From NCBI GenBank assembly GCA_025403435.1, contig CM046333.1:13231770-13295769 (forward strand): a DNA stretch of 64,000 nucleotides, read 5' to 3'. The stretch comes from Artocarpus heterophyllus (Eukaryota; Streptophyta; Magnoliopsida; Rosales; Moraceae). The notes below the pieces were generated by a model. That model saw only the letters and a list, made by a program, of their open reading frames with translations, did no database searches and was not told the DNA's origin. A program made the translations under genes and the position numbers. This document shows, one piece after another, positions 8,565 through 64,000 of this stretch. Position 1 is the first letter of the stretch, and the number at the start of each line of letters is the position of its first letter.

Positions 8565-8794
8565 TTAGATTGTCTCCTTATCTTATCCCCTTCTCGTGAT
8601 CTCTGTTTTAAACCTAAGAAAAGAAAAAATAAAAAATGCTATCTTGAAAGCTACCCAACAAACCCACATTTGATCAGTGCATGCACCAACTTCAACTATA
8701 TATATTACTTTCTCACTCCCTCTCCTCACTCACACCACTCGAGTACCAAAAACAAACGACTTTGTTTTTTCTTCTTTTTTTGGCTAATCAGAAA

Positions 8795-9733
8795 ATGGGT
8801 TCCTCTCTAATCACTAAACCATCCACTTTTTTCCTTCTCTTTTTCCTGATTTTAACGTTAACAAACTTGTCCCTCGCCGCAAGAAAGCTAACGTCGTTAT
8901 ACGAACCACCACCAATGGCCTTAACGTACCATAACGGCGCTTTGCTCGAAGGAAACCTCCCCGTTGCCGTTCTATGGTACGGGAAATTCTCATCAGCTCA
9001 GAAATCCATTATCGCCAACTTTCTTCTCTCCCTTGACTCACAAATGACGGATTTGCCCTCCGTCGCTCGCTGGTGGAACATCGTCCAAACCTACTTGAAG
9101 AAAGCCGGCAAAAGAGAGACGCGAATTTCTTTATCAAACCAGGTCTCCGACGAGGAATGTTCCCTCGGGAAATTCCTCAAAAGGTCTCAGGTCTCCGAGT
9201 TGGCTCACCGGGCGAACTCGAGACCTGGCGAGTTGACTCTGGTCCTCACTGCCCAGGACGTCGTTGTGGAGGGCTTTTGCATGAGCATCTGCGGGTTCCA
9301 CGGCTCGGGCGGCCACCACGGCCGGCATGACTCGGTGTTCGTCTGGGTCGGTAACTCGGTAACTCAGTGCCCTGGTCAGTGCACGTGGCCGTTCCACCAG
9401 CCCATCTACGGCCCACAGACTGCACCGCTGGGCGCGCCAAACGACGACATTGGGGTGGATGGCATGATCGTAAATATCGCCAGCCTTTTGGCCGGGACTG
9501 TCACGAACCCGTTTAGGAACGGGTACTATCTCGGCTCGGCTGACGCGCCACTCGAGGTGGCTTCAGCTTGTCCTGGAGTGTACGGCAAAGGGGCGTACCC
9601 GGGTTACGCTGGGGAGGTTTTAGTGGATTCTAGCTCCGGAGCGAGCTATAATGCGGTGGGACTGAATGGGAGGAAGTATATGTTGCCGGGATTGTTTGAC
9701 CCGGATACTTCTCAGTGTTCGACGGTTGTTTGA
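8795..9733 (+). CDS. EXORDIUM-like (EXO/EXL/PHI-1 family) secreted protein
   Basis: An intronless 312-codon gene. Known family role: EXORDIUM/PHI-1 proteins are secreted to the apoplast and promote growth and cell expansion in brassinosteroid and carbon signalling; no enzymatic activity is established. Visible features: a hydrophobic signal peptide (residues about 10-27, likely cleavage in LSLA-ARK), YHNG near residue 45, a WYGKF block at 61-65, a Cys-rich core FCMSICGFHGS at 161-171, CPGQCTWPFHQPIYGPQ at 192-208, and the conserved tail CPGVYGKGAYPGYAGEVLVD plus FDPDTSQC. Full-length members are about 300-320 residues, so it is complete. An in-frame ATG at 8681 exists, but starting at 8795 puts the signal peptide at the N-terminus. 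The CDS is clearly more GC-rich than its flanks. Closest in style to EXL2-type members; the exact orthologue is not assigned. Confidence 0.93.
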   Translation: MGSSLITKPSTFFLLFFLILTLTNLSLAARKLTSLYEPPPMALTYHNGALLEGNLPVAVLWYGKFSSAQKSIIANFLLSLDSQMTDLPSVARWWNIVQTYLKKAGKRETRISLSNQVSDEECSLGKFLKRSQVSELAHRANSRPGELTLVLTAQDVVVEGFCMSICGFHGSGGHHGRHDSVFVWVGNSVTQCPGQCTWPFHQPIYGPQTAPLGAPNDDIGVDGMIVNIASLLAGTVTNPFRNGYYLGSADAPLEVASACPGVYGKGAYPGYAGEVLVDSSSGASYNAVGLNGRKYMLPGLFDPDTSQCSTVV

Positions 9734-19837: not shown

Positions 19838-19948
19838 CTCCCTCCATAAGCACAAGCCATCTCACCGCCTCGTTTCCAAAGCCAAAAAACATAGCCATCC
19901 ATAGCCTGCCATTACTTATATTCTCCGCTTCCACATTTGCGATTAAAA

Positions 19949-21980
19949 ATGGGTACCCTTTCCATGCAAGAAAAGCCTCACGCAGTTTGCATACCTTTCC
20001 CAGCTCAGGGCCACATAAACCCCATGCTCAAACTCGCCAAGCTCCTCCATTTTAAGGGCTTCCACATCACCTTCGTCAACACAGAGTTCAACCACAAACG
20101 CCTCCTCAAGTCTCGTGGCCCTCACGCCCTCGATGGCCTTCCGTCGTTCCGCTTTGAAGCCATCCCCGACGGCCTCCCCCCCTCCGACGCCGATGCCACG
20201 CAGGACGTACCGTCTATCTGCGACTCCACGCCCAAGCACAGCCTTGTGCCCTTCAGAGACCTCCTTCTGAAGCTCAACTCCTCGCCGGACTTGCCTCCAG
20301 TCAGCTGCGTCGTCTCCGACGGCTCCATGAGCTTCACTCTCGACGCCGCCGAGGAGCTTGGCATCCTGGAGGTTCTTTTCTGGACGATGAGTGCATGTGG
20401 GTTTTTGGGATACCTCCACTACAGAGGACTCGTGGAAAAGGGGTATACGCCTTTTAAAGGTATGAAGTTTGTCATTTGTCATTAGTATTAATGAATCTAG
20501 TTACTGTCTTAATTACTTTATCTGATTTTTATGATTAATTATTTTTTAGTTTTGCGGCAACCCTTCTTGTCATGAGATGCATAAGTTAGTGCTGTTTTTG
20601 TGAAACTGATTTTTATGAGGATGTGACGGTTAAATGTATATTATATTAATATGCGGATTACATTAGATATATTTTGTGCACGAGTTTCAATTTTTTTTAA
20701 TCAAATTTATCTCTCTGATAAAAAATCAAACTTATCTCCAATCACCAATAATGGTTATAAGTTAGATTTAGTCTAGTGGATTGGGACAAATCTAAGTCTA
20801 CAAATTATTTTCCCTTATCATTTTATTTGTCTCGCGACGTAGTGCTTGACTCAGTGTCTGTATTTTCTACAAATTTTTTCTCACGTGCAAATACTTTTTT
20901 TTTCGCCTTTTCGTAAAAAAAAAAAAAAAAGAGTGCATTTTTTTGAAAGAAAAAAAAAAAGAAAATACATTGATTGATTATGTATCATTTCTTGGATTTC
21001 GCTCTGCAGATGAAAGTTACCTCACCAACGGGTATCTGGACACCGTGCTAGATTGGATTCCAGGCATGAAAGACATTCGTCTGAAGGACATCCCAACCTT
21101 CATCAGAACAACCGACCGAAACGACATCATGCTCAACTACGTCATCACCGAAACTGAGAGGACTCAAAAAGCTTCAGCAATCATCTTAAACACCTTTTAT
21201 GACCTCGAACGCGACGTCCTAAATGCAATAAAATCCATCCTAAAACCTCCCCTTTACACCGTCGGCCCTCTTCAGCTCCTCATCAACCAAATTCCCATAA
21301 ATGATCTCTCCAGATCCCTCGGATCAAACCTATGGAAAGAAGACCCCAAATGCCTCGAGTGGGTAGACTCTAAAGAACCCGGAAGCGTGGTTTACGTGAA
21401 TTTTGGAAGCATAACCGTCATGACATCGGAGCAGATGGTTGAGTTCGCCTGGGGACTCGCGAACAGTGAGAGGGAATTTCTGTGGGTGATAAGGCCGGAT
21501 CTCGTTGGTGGCGAGAGTGCCATTCTGCCTCTGGAATTCTTGGAGGAGACGAAGGAGAGAGGGTTCTTGACGAGCTGGTGTCCGCAGGAGCAGGTGCTGA
21601 GCCACCCGGCGGTGGGAGGGTTCTTGACACACAGCGGGTGGAACTCGACGATCGAGAGCATCTGCAGCGGGGTTCCGATGCTGTGCTGGCCGTTCTTCGC
21701 GGAGCAGCAGACCAACTGCCGGTTCAGCTGTGAAGAGTGGGGGATTGGGATGGAGATAGAGAGCGATGCAAAAAGAGAGGAGATAGAAAGGCTTGTGAGG
21801 GAGTTGATGGAGGGAGAAAAGGGGGGAGAGATGAAGAAGAGAGCGGAGGAGTGGAAGGAATTGGCGGATCAGGCAAGTAGCTCCGCCAGCAATGCTGACG
21901 CGGGCTCATCGTCTTTGTCGAGTTTTGGAAAGTTGGTTAACTTGCTATTAATGATGTCGAAGTCGTCATTGACTGGTTGA
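19949..21980 (+). CDS. UGT85-type UDP-glycosyltransferase (intact, two exons)
   Basis: Exon 1 is 19949-20459, the intron 20460-21009 (GT...AG, phase 1), exon 2 21010-21980; the product is 493 residues, usual for the family. Known family role: cytosolic transfer of a sugar, normally glucose from UDP-glucose, to small acceptors; UGT85 members act on iridoid aglycones, cyanohydrins, steviol or zeatin. Visible: [11 protein letters not shown] with catalytic His22, the partner Asp124 in [16 protein letters not shown] near 299, and the PSPG box W360-Q403 ending in FFAEQQ. Joining the exons restores the family sequence [12 protein letters not shown]. Oddity: the usual HCGWNS is HSGWNS (Ser379); the direct donor-binding His378, Trp381, Asn382, Ser383 and Glu386 remain. 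The C-terminal tail is Ser-rich and diverges from the commoner family ending. An in-frame TTG at 19937 is not a credible start; aaaATGGG at 19949 is. The acceptor cannot be predicted. Confidence 0.93.
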
Positions 21981-33378: not shown

Positions 33379-33481
33379 ACAAGGTAGATAGATCTCTAGG
33401 CTCTACCAAAGTGCAAAACCATATTCCAAACAGTTTAAGAACTTTTCCATTCCTTATCTTGTGATCAAAGTAGAGAAATCA

Positions 33482-35914
33482 ATGGGTTCCATTGTGGCGG
33501 AGAAGAATCAGCCACACGTAGTTTGCATTCCATATCCGGCTCAAGGCCACATCAACCCCATGACAAAGCTGGCCAAACTCCTCCATTACAAGGGGTTTTA
33601 TGTCACCTTTGTCCACACAGAGTTCAACTATAGACGCCTCCTCAGATCTCGAGGGCCGAACTCTCTAGACGGCCTTCCCTCGTTCAGGTTCGAGTCCATT
33701 CCCGATGGGCTTCCCCAGTCCGATGTCGATGCCACGCAGGACATACCGTCTTTGTGCGAGTCAATTAGCAAAAACTGCTTGGTACCATTCAGAGGGCTCC
33801 TCTCCAGGCTAAATTCTTCGCCAGATATTCCTCGGGTGACTTGTATTGTTTCTGACGGCGGCATGAGCTTCACTCTCGATGCGGCCCGTGAACTCGGTGT
33901 CCCGGAAGTTCTCTTCTGGACCACAAGTGCCTGTGGCTTCTTGGCCTACCTTAACTACCGGCAGCTTATTGAAAATGGCCTTACACCTCTTAAAGGTACT
34001 GGTCAGAACTTAAAGGACTTCTTTGATACCAAGAAAAATTAAACTTTTAGTCATAATAGTTTTTAGTAAAATTTATGTTATAACTAAATTTTTATTAAAA
34101 ATAAATGTGACTAAAAGTACAGCTTTTTTTAGTGTCATTAGCATTTTCTTTTTTTTAATATTATCGTTACAATTCTAAATGCTAAATTCATATGAATATG
34201 TCTTCCACGTTCCTTTCATACTTCCAGCTTGACATGCTAATTAATATGCATGCAGTAATAACTAGGGAGGGTGTCTCATTTTTTTTTGTAGTGTCTTTTT
34301 TTTTTAATATCATACCATGTCATATTAATAAAAATATTATAATTTATAAAATTTTTTAAATAATGTGACATGATATTGACATAACATTTTTTGTTGATAT
34401 GACATTATATTGTAAAAAAACATGAAAAAAAAACGAGAGTCGAATTAATCTGCTCCAAATGCAGTTACCTTTGAGCCTAAGCCCCATGTCAATTCCAATT
34501 CAAGTTCGATAAAAGCCACTCAACATTGCTCCTGTATTAATTTAGTTGATAGAAACTGCTGTTGGCTATGACGGCATCCAGGTTTTATAAACAAAAAATC
34601 CGTGGGCATAACACGAATTATTTTGATTAATCCGACGCTATTTTGATTTGATTGGAAAATTAAAAATTATTTCTACTTTAATCTGAATCCTACCACGAGA
34701 GAATTCTCCTTTATAAACTACCAATATTTACAGGAACTCGAATAATTCTGTCACAAACGTTTTGGCTATTTTATAATGCTAATTGCTTTGTAAATAATAT
34801 TCATTTGTATATGATATTTAGAGACTGATCACCTACATAGCTTGAGGGGGTACAACGACAGAATGAGTAACGTGTAGGTTTTTTTTTAAACGTTCGTATA
34901 CATACATATATATATAGATATATGATTAATTTTGTGATTTGATATACTAAATTCTGCTATTTTGTTGCACTTGCGCGGGTAGATGCAAGCTATATGACAA
35001 ATGGGTACTTGGATAACACCGTCATAAACTCAATACCGGGCATGAAAGACATGCGTCTGAGGGACTTCCCTAGCTTCATTAGAACTACAGATCGAAAAGA
35101 CATTATGCTTAACTTTCTCGACGTCGGGAGCCAGAAAGCCAAGAAAGCTTCCGCAATTGTTTTGAACACTTTTGACGCGCTCGAGAAGGAAGTCCTGGAC
35201 TCACTCTCTTCCATACTACCTCCGATTTACACCGTCGGTCCCTTAACTCTACTAATCAATCAAATCCAAGACGAAAACCTTAGATCCATTGGATCAAACC
35301 TCTGGAAAGAAGAGCCGTATTGCTTGAAGTGGTTGGACACACAATCACCGAACTCTGTTATCTACGTGAACTTTGGAAGCATAACGGTCATGACACCGGA
35401 GCAATTGGTCGAGTTTGCTTGGGGGCTCGCAAATAGCAACAAAACCTTGTGGATAATTAGGCCTGACCTAGTCATTGGAGATGTGGCGATATTGCCTCCA
35501 GAGTTTGTTTCGGAGACGAAAGATAGGGGCCTAATGGCTAGCTGGTGCCCTCAAGAGCAGGTCCTGAACCACCCTGCGATCGGAGGGTTCCTAACGCACT
35601 GCGGCTGGAACTCGACGATCGAGAGCATCAGCTGCGGGGTGCCGGTGATCTGCTGGCCGTTCTTCGCTGAGCAGCAGACCAACTGTAGGTATAGCTGCAG
35701 AGAGTGGGGGATTGGGATGGAGATAGAGATAGAGAAAGTAGAGAGAGGTAATATTGAAGGACTTGTGAGGGAATTGATGGACGGGGAGAAAGGTGGGGAG
35801 ATGAAGGAGAGGGCGATGGAGTGGAAGAAGTTGGCGGAGAATTCCACTGCTTTGTCTCTGTTGAATTTGGATAAGATGATTAAGCAGGTTCTTTTGGGTC
35901 CCGGGCTTAATTAA
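33482..35914 (+). CDS. UGT85-type UDP-glycosyltransferase (intact, two exons)
   Basis: Exon 1 is 33482-33995, the intron 33996-34982 (GT...AG, phase 1, 987 bp), exon 2 34983-35914; the product is 481 residues. Visible: [11 protein letters not shown] with catalytic His23, partner Asp125 in VSDGGMSF, the junction sequence [20 protein letters not shown] near 299, and a canonical PSPG box W359-Q402 with THCGWNS and FFAEQQ. The upstream in-frame GTG at 33461 is not a start; ATG at 33482 begins the family-like MGSIVAEKNQPHVVCIPYPAQGH region. An aataaa at 36027-36032 may be the poly(A) signal. It shares intron position and phase with the gene at 19949 but has a longer, unrelated-looking intron. Expected role is cytosolic glucosylation of a small hydroxylated acceptor, as for iridoid-, cyanohydrin- or zeatin-active UGT85 enzymes; the substrate is not readable from sequence. 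Confidence 0.94.
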
Positions 35915-47267: not shown

Positions 47268-47994
47268 TGTCACAACCTACCTTTTTGGGCTGTGATAAAA
47301 CTCTTTCTTACTTACTTTAAGGCAAAAATTTAGATTTTTTTTATACCGAAATAGATAGTTTACTTTCATTAATTTTGGTAACTTCTAAAATACTTTCACA
47401 CATTCATAATAACATAATTACTTTTACTTTTACAACATTTTTCTTTTTAAACATTTCCTTTTCAAAACAACTTAATATATACACTGCGGAAACATTCAGT
47501 AGCAGACTCCGTACCCGATCTGCACACGTCATCCGTCTGCCAGCTCATCATTAAGATTTATTTGGACCTTTTCGTCGAAATACTTACAGTATGAAATACT
47601 TAATGAGCTAACGCCCAGTAAGTCTCATAAATCCCACATGGACATTCAAATAAATGCATGATTCAATTATGCTTTCTTATAAACTTTCCTTATCTTCACC
47701 ATCTCTTATCTTTACTAGGGCCCAAGTGTTCGTACCATTGCACAATTTCATTTAGGTCTACGTAACACCGTGACCATACTTTAATCGTTAAACTCCCCTT
47801 GATTCAGGAGTCGGTACGATACTTTTCTTAATTTCTGGTGACATATTTACCAGTCCATTTATTATGGTTGACATACCATGCATGATGTAAGAATCACATG
47901 TTATCTATGATTCATTAATTCGTTCGCATAGCACAGTACACACAAGTACTTTCTTTATATACACACAAGTATTCATTCGTATACTCACATATAT
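47268..47994 (-). repeat. left part of a split solo LTR
   Basis: Begins TGTCACAACCTACC, the reverse of a GGTTGTGACA LTR end, and is preceded by cttta (47263-47267). It is cut at 47994 by the LOG-carrying element and continues at 56182. Both parts together make about 2930 bp. Confidence 0.8.
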
Positions 47995-49968
47995 TGTAAC
48001 GCCCCTATATGGGGGTTAACAGTTTTTAATGAGATAAAATAAAAATAAATAATAAAAGTAAAACCTTAAAAATAAAATTTGCCCGGGACTTAAATGAAAA
48101 CTCCCAACTCAAAAATAAAAATATAAACGACAAATAAACCACAGTTTTAATGTAGCACCTTAAATTTAATAATATAAACTGTTGTCATCATCATTTTAAC
48201 CCTCAACACATTGTAATACAGTCACAGAAAGTAACAATTGATGCTTACATTATCATGAAGAACATTCTCAACAATTGAAGCAGTCCCAATGTAATATAGT
48301 TACATCACTTCCTCAACTATATTTCTCGTAGCCACCTCACACTTAGTGAGTCCTGAAAAGATATAAACATAAGGGAATGAGCAACACTATGCTCAGTAGA
48401 GAAAGCCATTACTCACCTTTAGGTTTTTATCATTACCACATTAAAATCTGCATGGTCAGTAAGTCACATCATATTCCAGATTATGAGGTTTATTATGATC
48501 ACATCTTATGGATACCGTAGTTAATCATTACCAAGTGTCATAATTACACATTTATACAAATATTACCAATCATCATTGTTCCTAGGTATCCATGTTAAAT
48601 TGAGTATCACTCAACTCATCGAAACCCAAATGGGCGCACTTGATCACCCTATAAACATTCCAAGGGTGTTCCGGTGAGGGGACATCAAGCCCCGAGTCCT
48701 CACCAAATCGATTCCTGTACAGTGTGTTCTGGGACTTTCAACCCAAGGAAGCGTCATCGCCTTCCCCCTACTTTACCTTTTAGGGTATTCATGCCCAAGG
48801 ACGTAACCGCCGCCCTCTTCATGTCTCACCATTTCTCTATATTAAATCATTATTAATAGAGTCAGTTTTCCTAACCATGCTTCTCAATTTATAACATGTG
48901 TCAATTCATTATGTTCCTCGTCGTACAATACAAGACGAGTCCATGTCATAGTTTCATATGTGATACTCATATAATATCAGTTCAACATAGATATATATAT
49001 ATTGCGGCAAAACAATCAATTTTAATTCTATAAAAACCTCACAAAAATGAGTAATAGAATCCCTACCTTTCAAGCTTATCAACAGTCTCTTAATCCTGGA
49101 ATCAATTAACGTTAGCTCCATACTCCCTTGATCCTAAGGCGTGCATAAGGACAATTAAAACTAAAGCACAACATACAACTACATTCATAAAATTTATTTT
49201 AATTTAATCTTAGAATTTCAAGAAATAACCACTGCCCATAGAGGTATTATAAAGTTTAACAATATAAATTTTCTGTCTAGGGCATATACACTTAGACTTC
49301 ATACATATGCTCCAAAATAGCAACAAACATATACTTAGGTTTAAGAACGCAAATTTGAATAATCCTTTAGTATAAAAGAAAATTTATAAATGAAAGACTA
49401 AATTTGTTCATAAGATTCTAACCTCGGATTATGGTTAGTTGGAAGCTTGAAATGGCTTCAAAACAGGTTCCTTTAGTTCGGTATGACTGAAATTCTTGCT
49501 CAAATGGAGGTGATGGTGGCTGATTTTTATGGCTGCCTTGAAGAAGTTCTCTAAGTATTTTGCTTCAGCAAAGAAATATGAAGAAGAGTGTGGGAACCGT
49601 GGAAGAGAAAGGAAGAAAAGATGAAGTCTTTGAAGAGAAGTGATAGAAACAATTATAGAGGAGACATGTTGAAGCATGTCACGGAGGAAATAAAGAAAAT
49701 GAGGGTCAAGAGTAGTTGGAAAAGATATCCTTATGTCTCATCTAAAGACTTTAACACACATAATGCCAATATGACATTTTTGAGATTTATTAGAAGTTCT
49801 AAGGCTTTTTAGTAATCATACTAAATAAATATAGGAGAATTTTAGAAAACTTAAAAATAGATAAAAATAAATATTATAAAATAAATTTAAATGAAGCAAT
49901 TTTTTTTTTATACATTAAAAATTAATTTAATTACCTCAATACCCGTTAGAAGAATAACGGGTGTCACA
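47995..49968 (-). repeat. 3' LTR of the LOG-carrying element
   Basis: On the plus strand it reads tgtaacgcccctatatgg... to ...acgggtgtcaca. Every landmark lies exactly 6208 bp from its partner in the 5' LTR, so there are no length differences. Small reading frames inside it recur in all LTR copies and are not treated as genes. Confidence 0.93.
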
Positions 49969-49986
49969 GCTCTACCCCCCTTAAAG
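49969..49986 (-). other. polypurine tract of the LOG-carrying element
   Basis: In element sense the sequence is ctttaaggggggtagagc directly before the 3' LTR start TGTGACACC, the expected plus-strand primer position. Confidence 0.8.
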
Positions 49987-50640
49987 AAATTTCGTCCTCG
50001 AAATTTCAATTCTAGCAATACTAGTAAAAATTATGATTCCACTATGATTCCAATTCTGAGTCTAAACCGTTAATGTTGTTTGTCCTCCAAATTTAAGTTA
50101 TCGTATTTCCACTTATTTACTTGCATAATAAATCTTACTCCTAAATCCCTCAATAAGAGTATTTCTGACAAGTTTCAACTTATAACACCATATAATAGTC
50201 TAAGAATCTGATCAGGCATACATATTGACCATATCATGATTCCGGTCCTTCATTGTCCATGGACTGTGATTTACAATCACATTTAAGGAGATTGCCAGAG
50301 AAATTTTATATACTTCATCTTTAGGTTCCTTTTCCTTTTTGAGTAAGGAAAAGTCAAATATATTTGATTTCATACCTCAACTAATAAACTAAAACATAAT
50401 CATAAAACATATATCACAAACACTTATATTCAAAACCATACATTAAACTTATTCATAGAGATATTAAACGGAATCTCAGAGTTGCAAACATACCCGACAT
50501 ATTATTCATTAAACAGCTATCCTCATGACACAAACATTCAACCCAAATAATATACTCATGTTTCATATGGAATATCCCCATAACTGACTCTGGTACTTCC
50601 ACATAATATTAACAGAATATTACACATTACAAACATAATA

Positions 50641-50800
50641 CGGATACGTTTCGAGAGTACAAGGCACTCCGTATACCAGCTATCCATATCATGCATGCTT
50701 AGAGGATACAAAAACATCGATAAACAAAAGATCGGACCTTAAGAAGGATGCGTTTCGAGAGCATCAAGTACTCCGTATCCAGCCATCCCGGCATTAGGCT
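50641..50800 (-). repeat. two spaced copies of a ~45-bp motif in the element
   Basis: Blocks ggatacgtttcgagagtaca (50641) and ggatgcgtttcgagagcatc (50746) each run on into a ctccgtat(a)ccagc(c)atcc end, about 105 bp apart. A diverged pair occurs at 1540-1770. Confidence 0.7.
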
Positions 50801-50923
50801 CAATGAATCTAAAAGATTGAACAACGACGTACCACAAGAAACACAGAATACAAGGTAAACGATTATTCGTAACACACGAAATACGGACACACATGCCTAC
50901 ATGCCAAAGATAAAACAAAAAGA

Positions 50924-51614
50924 TTACAGATGGAGATTCAAATCAATTGGCCGCTCCCGGCTTTCCCTTTCCCATTCAAGCTTGGATGTTGCAGTGTCGG
51001 ATTCTGGATGTATGATTTGCATTTTATCTATCAATTCCTCAGCTGTTGAAGCAGTGACAAAGATTTGTCTCTCCGATTCTGTAGTGATGTTTTCTTCCAC
51101 AGCGTAATCTAGAAATTTCAAAAGACCGTCATAAAAACCCTTTACGTTCAGCAGTCCCAAAGGTTTGGAATAAAAGCCCAACAATTGCCCACAAGCAACT
51201 ATAAATATTTCCTCAAGAGTACCTAGACCACCAGGTAATGCTATAAAAGCATCAGAATTATAGATTATGTCTTTAAAATTTTTTAGGGATACTCCTGACT
51301 CCTTCTCCCTTACCTATGGCTTCCTTACAAAGGTTTCCTTCAACTGGAATATGAGGCCAAATTCTTACATCAGTAGCGTCGCTAGACCTAGCTGCTAGTG
51401 CCATATTTACCATCATTTTTATACTACCACCCCCATAGATTATGTTAATCTTCTTGTGTGCTAGGACTTGCCCTAAGTGATTTGCAGCTTCTAAATAAGC
51501 TTTATCTTTTCCAAGGCTGGAACCACAAAAGACACAGACATTCTTTATTTTCTTCGTGGACTGGGAGGTAGACATATTTGGTTTATAGAAGTGGTTGCTT
51601 AATGTCTGCTCCAC
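50924..51614 (-). pseudogene. LOG-like cytokinin-activating enzyme sequence captured by the retroelement
   Basis: Known role: LOG releases free-base cytokinin from cytokinin riboside 5'-monophosphate in the cytosol. The N-terminal part (from an ATG near 51575) has NVCVFCGSSLGKDKAYLEAA and IIYGGGSIKMM, matching the LOG nucleotide-binding start. The C-terminal part has DAFIALPGGLGTLEE, the PGGxGTxxE motif (about 51208-51245), then KPLGLLNVKGFYDGLL. The two parts are in different frames; the first ends at TAA 51273-51275, so a one-base shift near 51300 separates them. The conserved Arg-Lys pair upstream of the PGG motif appears as Asn-Phe. Plant LOG genes normally have several introns; this copy has none, so it probably came from a spliced transcript. 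The middle portion is much more diverged. Its sense orientation matches the element. A functional product is unlikely unless frameshifting occurs. Confidence 0.85.
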
Positions 51615-52218
51615 TTAGACTTCGGGTTCTACATGAGTTTTTAAAGATGAGAAATATACAAAAAGGGCTAAAGAGATAGACAAGTAGGTAATGAAAAAGT
51701 AATCCAAAGATTTAAACAAAATCTTGTGCGGATAAGAAAGTAAGATAAGGTGATTGATAGTTTACAGAAAATCTGATTCACTTTTTGAAAAAGATTAGAC
51801 TCTAATTGTATAACTTTTGACAATTGAGAACAATTCGACAGAAGACCCTCTTGACACAACTGTAGACTTTTTGACAAATATACACCAAGTCTAGAAATTT
51901 AATATAAACGACAAATACTGTAGAACTTTTGAAATTTGAGACACAAATCTTGAAATATCTGGATAAGCTTTTCAAAATTCAAACATATTACTGTACCGTA
52001 TGTAACGTGTCTGATAAGATAATATATTTTATTATATATATATTTAAGAAAATCATAAATTAAATAAGATATTAACACTTACTGTATCAATCTAATAATC
52101 ACAATTATTTCAAACACAAAAGCAAATATTCTGAGTAAAAGAAAAACACAAACTGTTGAACATCAGCTAAAACTGCTTCAAATAAGTAAAGACTGAATAA
52201 CCTTTATAGAGCGATGAC
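51615..52218. other. AT-rich spacer between the two cargo ORFs
   Basis: No coding similarity. In element sense it is U/A-rich. It could be the 5' leader of the LOG-like unit; no clear promoter was identified. Confidence 0.4.
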
Positions 52219-52740
52219 TTATTCCCCATCCAGTTTTCTTATGGCTTGGCAAACAGGATCTAGAAATACCATATTCCTGAGGCGTTGTCTTTCTGTATAA
52301 AATTTAGGCCAGAGTTTAAAAATAGCTCCTTGAACATATCCACTAGGGTGACCGTGGAGAGGAGGATGGATGCTATCCAAGTTCTCCTTTGAAAGTCCAT
52401 CCCTACAAAACCTTATTTTATCCTCTCTATTCGTAGACATATAACCAGGTGAAGTACATTTACCGTTACAATTTTGTCTTCCACATTTGTTACAAGTGAC
52501 CACGATGGCACGAGCTCTTCTTTTCATTGCACTACGACTAGTACATGTTCCTGGTAAACCGACATCTTGACTAAAGTCACTCGGACGGATTTTCCCCTCT
52601 ATTAACATTCTCACATCACAAGGGATACCAAAACGCATAAGAATCCACAACCGAGTAATTCTAGCCTTGTATTTCTTTCTGAGAATCTTTTGGGAGAGTG
52701 ATGGGAAATACTTTCTCAGGTGTTGGTACTTTGGGTCCAT
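52219..52740 (-). CDS. basic Cys-rich 173-residue ORF, resembles viral nucleic-acid-binding proteins
   Basis: A complete frame from ATG at 52740 to a stop at 52219, in element sense, first of the two cargo units. The N-terminal part (about 1-85) is basic; a central ...GIPCDVRMLIEGKIRPSDF region is followed by an Arg-rich KRRARAI string and then CNKCGRQNCNGKC (Cys spacing C-x2-C-x4-C-x3-C, about residues 82-94). The C-terminal half has no motif I know. This order (hydrophobic block, PSDF-like element, basic cluster, zinc-finger-like Cys cluster) recalls the small nucleic-acid-binding proteins of carlaviruses and relatives (Pfam Carla_C4 type), which bind RNA/DNA and can suppress silencing. That match is by eye only. 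It is not a retroviral gag zinc knuckle (CCHC): no His is in the cluster. Preceded by a CT-rich leader-like region. Confidence 0.6.
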   Translation of the reverse strand: MDPKYQHLRKYFPSLSQKILRKKYKARITRLWILMRFGIPCDVRMLIEGKIRPSDFSQDVGLPGTCTSRSAMKRRARAIVVTCNKCGRQNCNGKCTSPGYMSTNREDKIRFCRDGLSKENLDSIHPPLHGHPSGYVQGAIFKLWPKFYTERQRLRNMVFLDPVCQAIRKLDGE

Positions 52741-54183
52741 GATGAGATGAAAGAAGAGTAAATAGAAAGGAAAAATTAAGATAGTAAATTGCAGAATCCT
52801 AGAATTCCTTCTTCTTTTAGAGGAAAAGAAGAATTTTTAATGAAAAAGAAGAGGATTTGCGATTTAGAGAGAAAATAACAAATTAAGAGAGAAAAAGTGA
52901 ACTCGGAGAAATAAGCTCCTATGCACAGTAAACGTATTTGTAAACATTAATTAAACCACTGTATATGACACGTATAGAGACCACGTGGGAGAGACAGTGT
53001 GAATCAAACTGATTTAGGATTTAAACTAGGCCCAAATGTTCTTAGTTGAAAATGGTCAGGTTGTTTCGGGCCTTAACACATTTAGAACGAGTTAAATAAC
53101 AAATATAAAATTGAAAACCAATTTGTATAAATCTTAAACCCAATTCAAAGTCCACTATAGATAAAGTTAACTATAAACAACAAATCTAATTTAACGACAA
53201 CAAGGATCTTCTTGAATGATCCAGCAACTCAAATAATTTTGTTTTAATCAAAACCTTATTGAACAATACATACACCCATATGTTATTCCTAATACTCAAC
53301 ATCTATCAATGGATTCATCATCATTGCTACCAAGGGTTTAGAATGCGACTAACCTTGAAATCAATACGATTTACGTCTTTCAACGTAGACCATATCAATG
53401 AACAAAGACACTAGATGTTACTACTTAAGAACATCTACAATCCCCACAATTCTACTTATACAATATATAATTTTTTTCATATAACAAAACCTTAGGTAAC
53501 CAAAAGATTCACTGATACACTTAAATACAATGTACGTAACAAAATATTCCAATTTTGAGATTCATGCATTCTAGACTTTACACAGTCTCAACAGACCAAA
53601 AGTCTAACATTTATCTCTCTCAAGATTCAATACCATGATTCCCAACTTATATCATATTCCTCAAATAAATAGAACTTTCAAGAAAAGTTATTGACACTTA
53701 TGTGCTCCATCGAATCCACACATAATCATTACTTAGGTTTGAATCAATTACGAAAAAAAAATTGGCATATCTATGTCAAACTTTAAAATCAATAAATCAA
53801 GCCTTATATTTCTTATTGTTTTTCACGAGACAAAAGGCTCTTAAATCCTCGTATCTATACGAATTTCTTATCGTTTATACGAATTAGATATGCTTATAGA
53901 TCCAAATATTATACGAATCTCTCATAAGCATTCTACTTATAAACTCATTCCATATAATTATCATTCCCTCATAACTATTAATACTTTCCTTCTATATAAT
54001 TATTGTACTCATATAACTATTAATATTTTCATTCTATGGCCTTTCCATGTTACATCCTTCTAAACTGTATAAATCAATGTGAAGGTTCATTTTGATGATG
54101 ACACTGAAAATTCAGCTTCAAAACCATCTCAAAAATATATTTTTTTAAAGTGGTGCTACACTCCCTAGGTTAACCGAACCTAG
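52741..54183. other. non-coding leader region of the element
   Basis: About 1.4 kb between primer site and first ORF. Its first ~0.75 kb is shared with the second element at 60694-61525, so it is a family feature. No gag-like frame is seen. Confidence 0.6.
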
Positions 54184-54195
54184 GCTCTGATACCA
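54184..54195 (-). other. tRNA primer-binding site of the element
   Basis: gctctgatacca on the plus strand is the exact complement-sense of tggtatcagagc, the initiator-tRNA(Met) site of most plant LTR elements, a few bases inside the 5' LTR. Confidence 0.9.
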
Positions 54196-54202
54196 AAAAT
54201 TC

Positions 54203-56176
54203 TGTAACGCCCCTATATGGGGGTTAACAGTTTTTAATGAGATAAAATAAAAATAAATAATAAAAGTAAAACCTTAAAAATAAAATTTGCCCGGGACTTA
54301 AATGAAAACTCCCAACTCAAAAATAAAAATATAAACGACAAATAAACCACAGTTTTAATGTAGCACCTTAAATTTAATAATATAAACTGTTGTCATCATC
54401 ATTTTAACCCTCAACACATTGTAATACAGTCACAGAAAGTAACAATTGATGCTTACATTATCATGAAGAACATTCTCAACAATTGAAGCAGTCCCAATGT
54501 AATATAGTTACATCACTTCCTCAACTATATTTCTCGTAGCCACCTCACACTTAGTGAGTCCTGAAAAGATATAAACATAAGGGAATGAGCAACACTATGC
54601 TCAGTAGAGAAAGCCATTACTCACCTTTAGGTTTTTATCATTACCACATTAAAATCTGCATGGTCAGTAAGTCACATCATATTCCAGATTATGAGGTTTA
54701 TTATGATCACATCTTATGGATACCGTAGTTAATCATTACCAAGTGTCATAATTACACATTTATACAAATATTACCAATCATCATTGTTCCTAGGTATCCA
54801 TGTTAAATTGAGTATCACTCAACTCATCGAAACCCAAATGGGCGCACTTGATCACCCTATAAACATTCCAAGGGTGTTCCGGTGAGGGGACATCAAGCCC
54901 CGAGTCCTCACCAAATCGATTCCTGTACAGTGTGTTCTGGGACTTTCAACCCAAGGAAGCGTCATCGCCTTCCCCCTACTTTACCTTTTAGGGTATTCAT
55001 GCCCAAGGACGTAACCGCCGCCCTCTTCATGTCTCACCATTTCTCTATATTAAATCATTATTAATAGAGTCAGTTTTCCTAACCATGCTTCTCAATTTAT
55101 AACATGTGTCAATTCATTATGTTCCTCGTCGTACAATACAAGACGAGTCCATGTCATAGTTTCATATGTGATACTCATATAATATCAGTTCAACATAGAT
55201 ATATATATATTGCGGCAAAACAATCAATTTTAATTCTATAAAAACCTCACAAAAATGAGTAATAGAATCCCTACCTTTCAAGCTTATCAACAGTCTCTTA
55301 ATCCTGGAATCAATTAACGTTAGCTCCATACTCCCTTGATCCTAAGGCGTGCATAAGGACAATTAAAACTAAAGCACAACATACAACTACATTCATAAAA
55401 TTTATTTTAATTTAATCTTAGAATTTCAAGAAATAACCACTGCCCATAGAGGTATTATAAAGTTTAACAATATAAATTTTCTGTCTAGGGCATATACACT
55501 TAGACTTCATACATATGCTCCAAAATAGCAACAAACATATACTTAGGTTTAAGAACGCAAATTTGAATAATCCTTTAGTATAAAAGAAAATTTATAAATG
55601 AAAGACTAAATTTGTTCATAAGATTCTAACCTCGGATTATGGTTAGTTGGAAGCTTGAAATGGCTTCAAAACAGGTTCCTTTAGTTCGGTATGACTGAAA
55701 TTCTTGCTCAAATGGAGGTGATGGTGGCTGATTTTTATGGCTGCCTTGAAGAAGTTCTCTAAGTATTTTGCTTCAGCAAAGAAATATGAAGAAGAGTGTG
55801 GGAACCGTGGAAGAGAAAGGAAGAAAAGATGAAGTCTTTGAAGAGAAGTGATAGAAACAATTATAGAGGAGACATGTTGAAGCATGTCACGGAGGAAATA
55901 AAGAAAATGAGGGTCAAGAGTAGTTGGAAAAGATATCCTTATGTCTCATCTAAAGACTTTAACACACATAATGCCAATATGACATTTTTGAGATTTATTA
56001 GAAGTTCTAAGGCTTTTTAGTAATCATACTAAATAAATATAGGAGAATTTTAGAAAACTTAAAAATAGATAAAAATAAATATTATAAAATAAATTTAAAT
56101 GAAGCAATTTTTTTTTTATACATTAAAAATTAATTTAATTACCTCAATACCCGTTAGAAGAATAACGGGTGTCACA
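54203..56176 (-). repeat. 5' LTR of the LOG-carrying element
   Basis: 1974 bp, same length as the 3' LTR, starts tgtaacgcccc and ends gggtgtcaca on the plus strand, followed by the target duplication tatat. Confidence 0.93.
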
Positions 56177-56181
56177 TATAT

Positions 56182-58708: not shown

Positions 58709-60674
58709 TGTGACACCCGTTATTCTTCTAACGGGTATTGAGGTAATTAAATTAATTTTTAATGTATAAAAAAAAAATTGCTTCATTTAAATTTATTTTA
58801 TAATATTTATTTTTATCTATTTTTAAATTTTCTAAAATTCTCCTATATTTATTTAGTATGATTACTAAAAAGCCTTAGAACTTCTAATAAATCTCAAAAA
58901 TGTCATATTGGCATTATGTGTGTTAAAGTCTTTAGATGAGACATAAGGATATCTTTTCCAACTACTCTTGACCCTCATTTTCTTTATTTCCTCCGTGACA
59001 TGCTTCAACATGTCTCCTCTATAATTGTTTCTATCACTTCTCTTCAAAGATTTCATCTTTTCTTCCTTTCTCTTCCACGGTTCCCACACTCTTCTTCTCA
59101 TTTCTTTGCTGAAGCAAAATACTTAGAGAACTTCTTCAAGGCAGCCATAAAAATCAGCCACCATCACCTCCATTTGAGCAAGAATTTCAGTCATACCGAA
59201 GTAAAGGAACCTGTTTTGAAGCCATTTCAAGCTTCCAACTAACCATAATCCGAGGTTAGAATCTTATGAACAAATTTAGTCTTTCATTTATAAATTTTCT
59301 TTTATACTAAAGGATTATTCAAATTTGCGTTCTTAAACCTAAGTTTATGTTTGTTGCTATTTTGGAGCATATGTATGAAGTCTAAGTGTATATGCCCTAG
59401 ACAGAAAATTTATATTGTTAAACTTTGTAATACCTCTATGGGCAGTGGTTATTTCTTGAAATTCTAAGATTAAATTAAAATAAATTTTATGAATGTAGTT
59501 GTATGTTGTGCTTTAGTTTTAATTGTCCTTATGCACGCCTTAGGATCAAGGGAGTATGGAGCTAACGTTAATTGATTCCAGGATTAAGAGACTGTTGATA
59601 AGCTTAAAAGGTAGGGATTCTATTACTCATCTTTTGTGAGGTTTTTATAGAATTAAAATTGATTGTTTTGCCGCAATATATATATATCTATGTTGAACTG
59701 ATATTATATGTGTATCACATATGAAACTATGACATGGACTCGTCTTGTATTGTACGGCGAGGAACATAATGAATTGACACATGTTATAAATTGAGAAGCA
59801 TGGTTAGGAAAACTAACTCTATTGATAATGATTTAATATAGAGAAATTGTGAGACATGAAGAGGGCGACGGTTACGTCCTTGGGCATGAATACCCTAAAA
59901 GGTAAAGTAGGGGGAAGGCGATGACGCTTCCTTGGGTTGAAAGTCCCAGAACACACTGTACAGGAATCGATTTGGTGAGGACTCGGGGCTTGATGTCCCC
60001 TCACCGGAACACCCTTGGAATGTTTATAGGGTGATCAAGTGCGCCCATTTGGGTTTCGATGAGTTGAGTGATACTCAATTTAACATGGATACCTAGGAAC
60101 AATGATGATTGTTAATATTTGTATAAATGTGTAATTATGACACTTGGTAATGATTAACTACGGTATCCATAAGATGTGATCATAATAAACCTCATAATCT
60201 GGAATATGATGTAACTTACTAACCATGCAGATTTTAATGTGGTAATGATAAAGGTGAGTAATGGCTTTCTCTACTGAGCATAGTGTTGCTCATTCCCTTA
60301 TGTTTATATCTTTTCAGGACTCACTAAGTGTGAGGTGGCTACGAGAAATATAGTTGAGGAAGTGATGTAACTATATTACATTGGGACTGCTTCAATCGTT
60401 GAGAATGTTCTTCATGATAATGTAAGCATCAATTGTTACTTTCTGTGACTGTATTACAATGTGTTGAGGGTTAAAATGATGATGACAACAGTTTATATTA
60501 TTAAATTTAAGGTGCTACATTAAAACTGTGGTTTATTTGTCGTTTATATTTTTATTTTGAGTTGAGAGTTTTCATTTAAGTCCCGGGCAAATTTTATTTT
60601 TAAGGTTTTACTTTTATTATTTATTTTTATTTTATCTCATTAAAAACTGTTAACCCCCACATAGGGGCGTTACA
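58709..60674 (+). repeat. 5' LTR of the second element
   Basis: 1966 bp, starts tgtgacacccgttattc, ends ggggcgttaca. It differs from the 1974-bp LTRs by scattered substitutions and small indels, so it belongs to a separate insertion event. Confidence 0.92.
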
Positions 60675-60681
60675 GAATTTT

Positions 60682-60693
60682 TGGTATCAGAGC
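60682..60693 (+). other. tRNA primer-binding site of the second element
   Basis: tggtatcagagc, canonical initiator-tRNA(Met) site, 7 bases after the LTR end. Confidence 0.9.
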
Positions 60694-61525
60694 CTAGGTT
60701 CGGTTAACCTAGGGAGTGTAGCACCACTTTAAAAAAATATATTTTTGAGATGGTTTTGAAGCTGAATTTTCATTGTCATCATCAAAATGAACCTTCACAT
60801 TGATTTATACAGTCTAGAAGGATGTAACATGGAAAGGCCATAGAATGAAAATATTAATAGTTATATGAGTACAATAATTATATAGAAGGAAAGTATTAAT
60901 AGTTATGAGGGAATGATAATTATATGGAATGAGTTTATAAGTAGAATGCTTATGAGAGATTCGTATAATATTAGGATCTATAAGCATATCTAATTCGTAT
61001 AAACGATGAGAAATTCGTATAGATACGAGGATTTAAGAGCCTTTTGTCTCGTGAAAAACAATAAGAAATATAAGGCTTGATTTATTGATTTTAAAGTTTG
61101 ACATAGATATGCCAAATTTTTCGTAATTGATTCAAACCTAAGTAATGATTATGTGTGGATTCGATGGAGCACATAAGTGTCAATGTCTTTTCTTAAAAGT
61201 TCTATATATTTGAGGAATATGATATAAGTTGAAAATCATGGTATTGAATCTTGAGAGAGATAAATGTTAGACTTTTGGTCTGTTGAGACTGTGTAAAGTC
61301 TAGAATGCATGAATCTCAAAATTGGAATATTTCGTTACGTACATTGTATTTAAGTGTATCAGTGAATCTTTATATATAGATGCAATAGAAAAATGATCAA
61401 TAGGAGTTTCCTTAAGTAAATCATAATACTTAAGGCACTTATAATAATTTTGGATAATTACGATAAAATGTTTAAGTTTTAGATGTTTAGAAGTGAATCT
61501 TTTGGTTACTTAAGGTTTTGTTATA

Positions 61526-63871
61526 TGTAACGCCCCTATGTGGGGGTTAACAGTTTTTAATGAGATAAAATAAAAATAAATAATAAAAGTAAAACCTTAA
61601 AATAAAATTTGCCCGGGACTTAAATGAAAACTCTCAACTCAAAAATAAAAATATAAACGACAAATAAACCACAGTTTAATGTAGCACCTTAAATTTAATA
61701 ATATAAACTGTTGTCATCATCATTTTATCCCTCAACACATTGTAATACAGTCACAGAAAGTAACAATTGATGCTTACATTATCATGAAGAACATTCTCAA
61801 CAATTGAAGCAGTCCCAATGTAATATAGCTACATCACTTCCTCAACTATATTTCTCGTAGCCACCTCACACTTAGTGAGTCCTGAAAAGATATAAACATA
61901 AGGGAATGAGCAACACTATGCTCAGTAGAGAAAGCCATTACTCACCTCTATCATTACCACATTAAAATCTGCATGGTTAGTAGGTACATCATATTCCAGA
62001 TTATGAGGTTTATTATGATCACATCTTATGGATACCGTAGTTAATCATTACCAAGTGTCATAATTACACATTTATACAAATATTACCAATCATCATTGTT
62101 CCTAGGTATCCATGTTAAATTGAGTATCACTCAACTCATCGAAACCCAAATGGGCGCACTTGATCACCCTATAAACATTCCAAGGGTGTTCCGGTGAGGG
62201 GACATCAAGCCCCGAGTCCTCACCAAATCGATTCCTGTACAGTGTGTTCTGGGACTTTCAACCCAAGGAAGCGTCATCGCCTTCCCCCTATTTTACCTTT
62301 TAGGGTATTCATGCCCAAGGACGTAACCGTCGCCCTCTTCATGTCTCACAATTTCTCTATATTGAATCATTATCAATAGAGTTAGTTTTCCTAACCATGC
62401 TTCTCAATTTATAACATGTGTCAATTCATTATGTTCCTCGCCGTACAATACAAGACGAGTCCATGTCATAGTTTCATATGTGATACACATATAATATCAG
62501 TTCAACATAGATATATATATTGCAGCAAAACAATCAATTTTAATTCTATAAAAACCTCACAAAAGATGAGTAATAGAATCCCTACCTTTTAAGCTTATCA
62601 ACAGTCTCTTAATCCTGGAATCAATTAACGTTAGCTCCATACTCCCTTGATCCTAAGGCGTGCATAAGGACAATTAAAACTAAAGCACAACATACAACTA
62701 CATTCATAAATAAATCATGTGTAAACCTATCTTACTAGTATGCCATTAAAGCTTTTATATAAATCTCTTTCGAATACCACAGTAAACAATTTTTGTCTTA
62801 ACACAATATAAAATGTAAACAAGTAATCTATAGGTTTTAGTCCCTAATAAGATTCATCAATCACTTAGGATAATATTGGAAAGGTTGCAAGACATTAAAG
62901 AATTAGGTGGTGAGCAAAGATGGGTTCTTGGTTCAGGTTAGCAGCTGGTATACCATAACAAACTGGCAGATTTACTAGTTTCCAATACAAAAATTGAATA
63001 ATTCTTAGAAAATAAAATACAACTCCGATTTAGGTTTATGATAGCTCGTTAGAAAGCCTAGGATGCTACTTTTCAAATATGCAAACCAATTCATAAAATT
63101 CATTTTAATTTAATCTTAGAATTTCAAGAAATAGCCACTGTCCATAGAGGTATTACAAAGTTTAACAATATAAATTTTCTGTCTAGGGCATATACACTTA
63201 GACTTCATACATATGCTCCAAAATAGCAACAAACATATACTTAGGCTTAAGAACGCAAATTTGAATAATCCTTTAGTATAAAAGAAAATTTATAAATGAA
63301 AGACTAAATTTGTTCATAAGATTCTAACCTCGGATTATGGTTAGTTGGAAGCTTGAAATGGCTTCAAAACAGGTTCCTTTACTTCGGTATGACTGAAATT
63401 CTTGCTCAAATGGAGGTGATGGTGGCTGATTTTTATGGCTGCCTTGAAGAAGTTCTCTAAGTATTTTGCTTCAGCAAAGAAATAGAAGAAGAGTGTGGGA
63501 ACCGTGGAAGAGAAAGGAAGAAAAGATGAAGTCTTTGAAGAGAAGTGATAGAAACAATTATAGAGGAGACATGTTGAAGCATGTCACGGAGGAAATAAAG
63601 AAAATGAGGGTCAAGAGTAGTTGGAAAAGATATCCTTATGTCTCATCTAAGACTTTAACACACATAATGCCAATATGACATTTTTGAGATTTATTAGAAG
63701 TTCTAAGGCTTTTTAGTAATCATACTAAATAAATATAAGAGAATTTTAGAAAATTTAAAAATAGATAAAAATAAATATTATAAAATAAATTTAAATGAAG
63801 CAATTTTTTTTTATACATTAAAAGTTAATTTAATTACCTCAATACCCGTTAGGAGAATAACGGGTGTCACA
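61526..63871 (-). repeat. 3' LTR of the third element, with a ~390-bp extra segment
   Basis: 2346 bp. The excess over other copies is 62711-63097, bounded by the 9-bp direct repeat attcataaa (62702-62710 and 63089-63097). The remainder matches the other LTRs. Confidence 0.9.
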
Positions 63872-63889
63872 GCTCTACCCCCCTTAAAG
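63872..63889 (-). other. polypurine tract of the third element
   Basis: Same sequence as 49969-49986, adjacent to the LTR. Confidence 0.8.
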
Positions 63890-64000
63890 AAATTTCGTCC
63901 TCGAAATTTCAATTCTAGCAATACTAGTAAAAATTATGATTCCACTATGATTCCAATTCTGAGTCTAAACCGTTAATGTTGTTTGTCCTCCAAATTTAAG

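Follow-up and report, generated by a model that had tools for sequence, protein, structure and literature searches.

The window, that is the whole 64-kb stretch of DNA analysed here, contains a complete LTR retrotransposon, E1 (47995-56176, minus strand). Its 5' LTR in element sense (54203-56176, minus strand) and its 3' LTR (47995-49968, minus strand) measure 1974 bp each with 0 differences between them, and the element is flanked by a TATAT target duplication at 47990-47994 and 56177-56181. A primer site, TGGTATCAGAGC, begins 7 bases past the 5' LTR (minus strand, 54195-54184) and is presumably of the initiator-Met tRNA (iMet) type, while a polypurine tract, AAGGGGGGTAGAGC (49969-49982, minus strand), lies just before the 3' LTR. 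These limits are the ones drawn in the initial annotation of this DNA. The interior of 4234 bp carries two genes, both in element sense: a Cys-rich ORF of 173 codons whose product resembles viral nucleic-acid-binding proteins (NABP; 52219-52740, minus strand), and a LONELY GUY (LOG)-like gene (50924-51575, minus strand) that spans the whole length of a LOG, its frame being broken once near 51280-51290, and has an LxL-rich tail on its second half. Of 50 ORFs of 42 aa or longer, taken from the six reading frames of the interior and one LTR, none gave a Pfam match to gag, reverse transcriptase (RT) or integrase (IN), and the pol piece of contig L001, described below, has no match anywhere in the 64-kb window. 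The earlier description of an element with no gag-pol and with two non-retroviral genes in its own sense, one LOG-like and one virus-like, is thus upheld. With two LTRs, a 5-bp target site duplication (TSD), a primer site and a polypurine tract, E1 belongs to the LTR retrotransposons, and with neither gag nor pol detected it falls outside the autonomous ones: it is a very young, non-autonomous LTR retrotransposon.

Elsewhere in the window lie an intact gene of the Phi_1 (phosphate-induced protein 1, EXORDIUM-like) family (8648-9733, E=1.5e-116) and an array of tandem UDP-glycosyltransferase genes and pieces (19895-21980 and 33392-35914, with related repeats up to 43394), two ORFs of which match PF00201. 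A stretch at 1547-1760 matches, at 69% over 215 bp, the part of E1 between LOG and the 3' LTR and may be what remains of a related element.

Two further copies of the E1 family occupy the end of the window. Copy B (58709-61525, plus strand) comprises an LTR (58709-60674) and the start of an interior and is interrupted by copy C (61526-64000, minus strand), which is inserted in it and extends past the window end, its NABP ORF being located beyond that end (C7:13297895). The LTR of copy C holds an insert of about 380 bp (62711-63088) with a 9-bp flanking repeat; since 4 of 20 fetched copies (L012, L016, L025 and L029) have their LTR split at this position, the insert marks an LTR variant. Another insert, of 120 bp with an 11-bp flanking repeat, is found in the interior of copy B (61372-61491).

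A search for genome copies with the same cargo, the check proposed with the initial annotation, was positive: in the 985-Mb genome, the 1.9-kb module that spans both genes recurs in at least 39 other places at 98-100% identity (40 scored among 2329 first-look candidates, the counts being lower bounds). The Cys-rich ORF by itself is found in at least 150 copies at 99-100% identity over residues 1-173, all stop-free (150 scored among 5820 candidates, again a lower bound), and a hand count of these 150 listed matches places 33 on contig C8 and 31 on contig C7. Full-length sequences were fetched for 20 copies, chosen as the best module matches, and 13 of them possess two full LTRs. These 13 copies are 8115-8207 bp long, the two LTRs of a copy differ by 0-7 mismatches and 0-9 gap positions, and matching 5-bp TSDs surround 11 of the 13. 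The E1 family is young, large and uniform.

The LOG-like sequence had been regarded as a gene fragment. It proves to be a whole, intronless LOG gene with one frame break, and full-length copies of 216 aa are present in the genome. Its second half matches PF03641 (E=9.9e-22) and its first half PF18306 at a sub-threshold level (4.8e-4), and each of the two halves has a PDB match to Arabidopsis At2g37210. Plant LOG genes contain introns, and their absence here fits a copy made at the RNA level. P0126, an unbroken relative that is 98% identical to the window LOG, yields a structural model whose best PDB hit is 2a33 (E=1.2e-15), which points to a LOG fold, residues 73-95 and the tail being modelled with low confidence. 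While the PGGxGTxxE motif is kept as PGGLGTLEE in both the window frame and P0126, the GGGSxGLMG and MHxRKxxM stretches are altered in the window LOG family. The Arg residue of the latter stretch, which we take to be catalytic, is changed in this family; it is kept in most aligned relatives and in the two more distant loci L049 and L050 (MPERIRDM) considered below. Because the active-site region has drifted, catalysis by the LOG of the window's own family seems unlikely. The branch leading to the window LOG in the tree is very long (1.72) and its placement unsure. An LxLxL tail, presumably an EAR repression motif, occurs within the last 14 residues of 106 of the 120 LOG relatives listed, a set biased to close relatives, versus 2.2 expected by shuffling. 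This tail is absent from the sister sequences P0194, P0234 and P0235, and the LOG proteins of L049 and L050 end in DLSL instead.

The 173 codons of the Cys-rich ORF compare with a longest ORF of 156 codons and a mean of 72 in 500 Markov-simulated interiors. A search with this single sequence retrieved 15 relatives, and a profile search a plant family of 855 proteins at E<=0.01 (the best 120 of the 855 being listed); the named hosts among the relatives listed are Hibiscus, Xanthoceras, Populus, Acer, Rhamnella and Orobanche. Scans with NABP queries and with one LOG found no relatives in viral contigs, plasmids gave no match, and prokaryote genome contigs yielded one relative, L001, among 117 pattern matches. 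At E<=0.01, 36 of 43 family members match PF01623 and 35 of 43 match PF05515, by which the family appears modestly similar to the NABP of betaflexiviruses. Viral descent of the Cys-rich protein is a lead rather than an established fact, and has to be weighed against a non-viral origin, in which the protein would be a plant or retroelement zinc finger that arose by convergence or was taken by viruses from plants. A four-Cys finger is found in 107 of 125 relatives and the basic pattern searched for in 102. Several features accord with a non-viral origin: the finger spacing is CX2CX4CX3C in 101 of 125 and the carlavirus-type CX2CX12CX4[CH] in 0 of 125, and the window protein itself matches neither PF05515 nor PF01623. 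Likewise, fold comparisons gave weak matches, the model of the protein (pLDDT 77, pTM 0.48) having one PDB match, at E=5.1, and none of note. However, when members were scanned singly, 6 of 10 passed the cut-off of PF05515, with matches of 58-88 residues, while that of PF01623 was passed by 5 of 10, and the top match in the viral fold library, weak though it is at E=0.13, is the 15 kDa protein of a trichovirus, cherry mottle leaf virus. We regard a non-viral origin as less likely than not.

Carlavirus cysteine-rich proteins (CRPs) are reported to suppress silencing and to contain a nuclear signal; in chrysanthemum virus B, the CRP has been tied to increased expression of a host transcription factor and to cell proliferation (PMC8742542, PMC8839810). 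Like the NABP/CRP of carlaviruses and trichoviruses as presented in these articles, the plant proteins have a Cys finger after a basic stretch, besides the Pfam similarity of relatives; they differ by the spacing of the finger, by their location in retrotransposons and by a length of about 170-185 aa (PMC8742542, PMC8839810). By analogy, the NABP-like protein plausibly works like a carlavirus CRP.

The association of the two genes extends beyond E1 and its close copies. Searching the genome with P0234 yielded 5748 candidates, of which 150 were scored as single-frame LOG matches at 47-54% identity, many of them stop-free; as the window LOG family is just 43% identical to P0234, these matches are mostly other copies. 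In both of the two places inspected among the 150, L049 and L050, a gag, a protease region, an NABP and a LOG follow each other in identical order and sense. The gag ORFs match Retrotrans_gag (5.5e-9 in L049 and 4.5e-9 in L050), the aspartic protease regions score 0.03 (below the cut-off) and 2.2e-6, and the NABP are 59% and 54% identical to that of the window; the NABP frame is broken in L049, and both genes are open in L050. RT was not found in nine ORFs scanned from these loci, an absence that is provisional, and the pol piece of L001, itself lacking RT, gave no integrase match in the L050 element. L050, on contig C4, is flanked by LTR-like repeats (19344960-19347030 and 19354729-19356846) that are about 92.5% identical, and a TGGCGCC primer-like site occurs 5 bases past the first of them in place of TGGTATCAGAGC. 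Its different primer-like site, the presence of a gag region and the divergence between its LTRs place the L050 element in another, older family than that of E1. On these sequence comparisons, the NABP-LOG pair predates E1, and at least two LTR families of this genome carry it.

This finding bears on the proposal, made in the initial annotation, of a capture private to the E1 family in the fashion of maize Bs1. Such a capture would account for a plant-type LOG gene devoid of introns, but it is at odds with a full-length LOG and with the same pair standing beside gag in a second family, and we consider it highly improbable. Recent common descent of the pair in the two families is also unlikely, given their differing primer sites and a protein identity of about 50-60%.

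Sequences from other sources add to this picture. In L001 (L001:1-3330) an NABP ORF comes immediately after a gypsy-type integrase (rve 2.4e-16), and no LOG was found in the 983 bases after that ORF. L001 is filed under a Candidatus Nomurabacteria MAG, yet it looks like a plant retrotransposon, and it is probably plant contamination in a bacterial MAG. Two NABP-LOG pairs share both source and contig size (4511 and 8723). In a coincidence test on 79 NABP and 78 LOG rows, from which chromosome- and scaffold-scale rows and rows below 1.2 kb were excluded, two such pairs are not unusual at the 1.2-kb cut (0.62 expected; two or more in 45 of 400 shifts); at a 4-kb cut they are unusual, with 0.0275 expected and 0 of 400 shifts reaching two. 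As the 4-kb cut was picked after the data had been seen, we treat the coincidence as a hint only.

Whether the two genes are maintained can be judged from the 39 other module copies. The NABP has 173 aa and a good match in 31 of them, and two more (L027 and L047) also have a full-length frame but fall outside the cut-off because of a longer frame and a weaker match; LOG has its full 216 aa in 24, and both genes pass in 21. The LOG frame is split at one shared place in 14 of these copies and in the window copy, hence in 15 of 40. No SNP is fixed in the split-LOG class, and this lack of a diagnostic SNP suggests that the frame change recurred or was spread by gene conversion. Distinct SNPs number 19 synonymous, 18 nonsynonymous and 3 stop in NABP (synonymous excess, P=0.009), and 17 synonymous and 17 nonsynonymous in LOG (P=0.010). 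The tests are modest, since the copies share a history and were chosen by their module match, and they lend moderate support to constraint on both ORFs. A lower variation in the module than in its surroundings was not used, because the copies had been chosen by the module.

The two genes could also be passive passengers, an ancestral gag-pol element having taken both genes and then lost gag-pol, so that they now hitch-hike without function. The frequency of split LOG frames, the altered active-site region and the great length of the branch on which the window LOG sits would agree with this, and in so young a family intact ORFs could reflect youth alone. On the other hand, both genes are open in far more diverged relatives, at about 50% identity, a synonymous SNP excess is seen in each, and the window NABP and that of L001 are identical at 57, 69 and 45% of first, second and third codon positions. 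We consider functionless hitch-hiking unlikely.

The best explanation, to which we give a probability of about 0.7, is that NABP and LOG form an accessory cassette that different LTR families have in common, the E1 family being a gag-less, high-copy carrier of it. What counts for it is the pair in L049 and L050, the 150 or more stop-free NABP copies, the full-length state of NABP in 31 and of LOG in 24 of 39 copies, the synonymous excess among SNPs, the existence of an 855-protein family, the LxLxL tail of most LOG relatives listed and the gene arrangement of L001. Against it count the 15 of 40 copies with a split LOG, the modest strength of the SNP tests, the inspection of two among 150 LOG places, the broken NABP frame of L049, the lack of a LOG in the 983 bases after the NABP ORF of L001, the DLSL tails of L049 and L050 and the failure to find an autonomous partner of the E1 family. 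A non-viral origin of the Cys-rich protein is compatible with the cassette. According to this explanation, E1 RNA would be transcribed from the LTR and would rely on gag-pol supplied in trans by another element for its copying, a process that does not need an intact LOG in cis, as the split copies indicate. The cassette would be an exchangeable module, kept because host cells may become more permissive. The NABP-like protein may have RNA as its target or work in the nucleus, through silencing suppression or transcription as reported for carlavirus proteins, and the LOG-like protein might activate cytokinin in those elements that retain an intact active site or, alternatively, act through its LxLxL tail on host transcription and a co-repressor.

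Pushed further, these analogies lead to a more specific scheme, which we hold tentatively and at somewhat less than even odds. The cassette would resemble the accessory genes of retroviruses, combining an NABP of RNA-virus type with a retrocopied cytokinin-activating enzyme that bears a co-repressor-binding tail; it would move between gag-bearing and gag-less families and aid their spread by silencing suppression together with reprogramming of growth or transcription. If true, the manipulation of silencing, cytokinin or co-repressor pathways by plant retrotransposons would become testable, as would the exchange of genes between RNA viruses and LTR elements, and the cassette could explain the very high copy number of an element devoid of gag-pol.

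Among the papers listed by full-text searches, titles and the openings of abstracts contained no report of a LOG or a carlavirus-type NABP in an LTR element, nor of the two as a pair. A review of additional ORFs in plant LTR retrotransposons describes their functions as unclear or unknown, and neither NABP nor LOG is named among them in the first two of its three parts (PMC7264820); a term search of PMC13317346 returned no mention of cytokinin or LOG. As in the elements covered by those parts of the review, the E1 family has interior sense ORFs kept in many copies, and the position of the NABP ORF behind pol in L001 recalls that of env-like additional ORFs, whereas E1 is without gag-pol (PMC7264820). 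Compared with LOG enzymes, the element LOG shares the fold and the PGGxGTLEE motif, and differs in being intronless, in residing inside LTR elements, in the LxLxL tail of most relatives listed and, for the window family, in a changed catalytic Arg region. Maize Bs1 is likewise an LTR element with host-derived sequence; its captured segments reportedly fall short of full-length ORFs (PMC7264820, PMC13317346), whereas the ORFs of the E1 family are full length in most inspected copies and the pair occurs in two families. Finally, Ty3/gypsy elements of orchids that carry an m6A demethylase domain (PMC9289625) resemble E1 in having gained a host-type enzyme domain, the domain being a different one from the LOG of E1.
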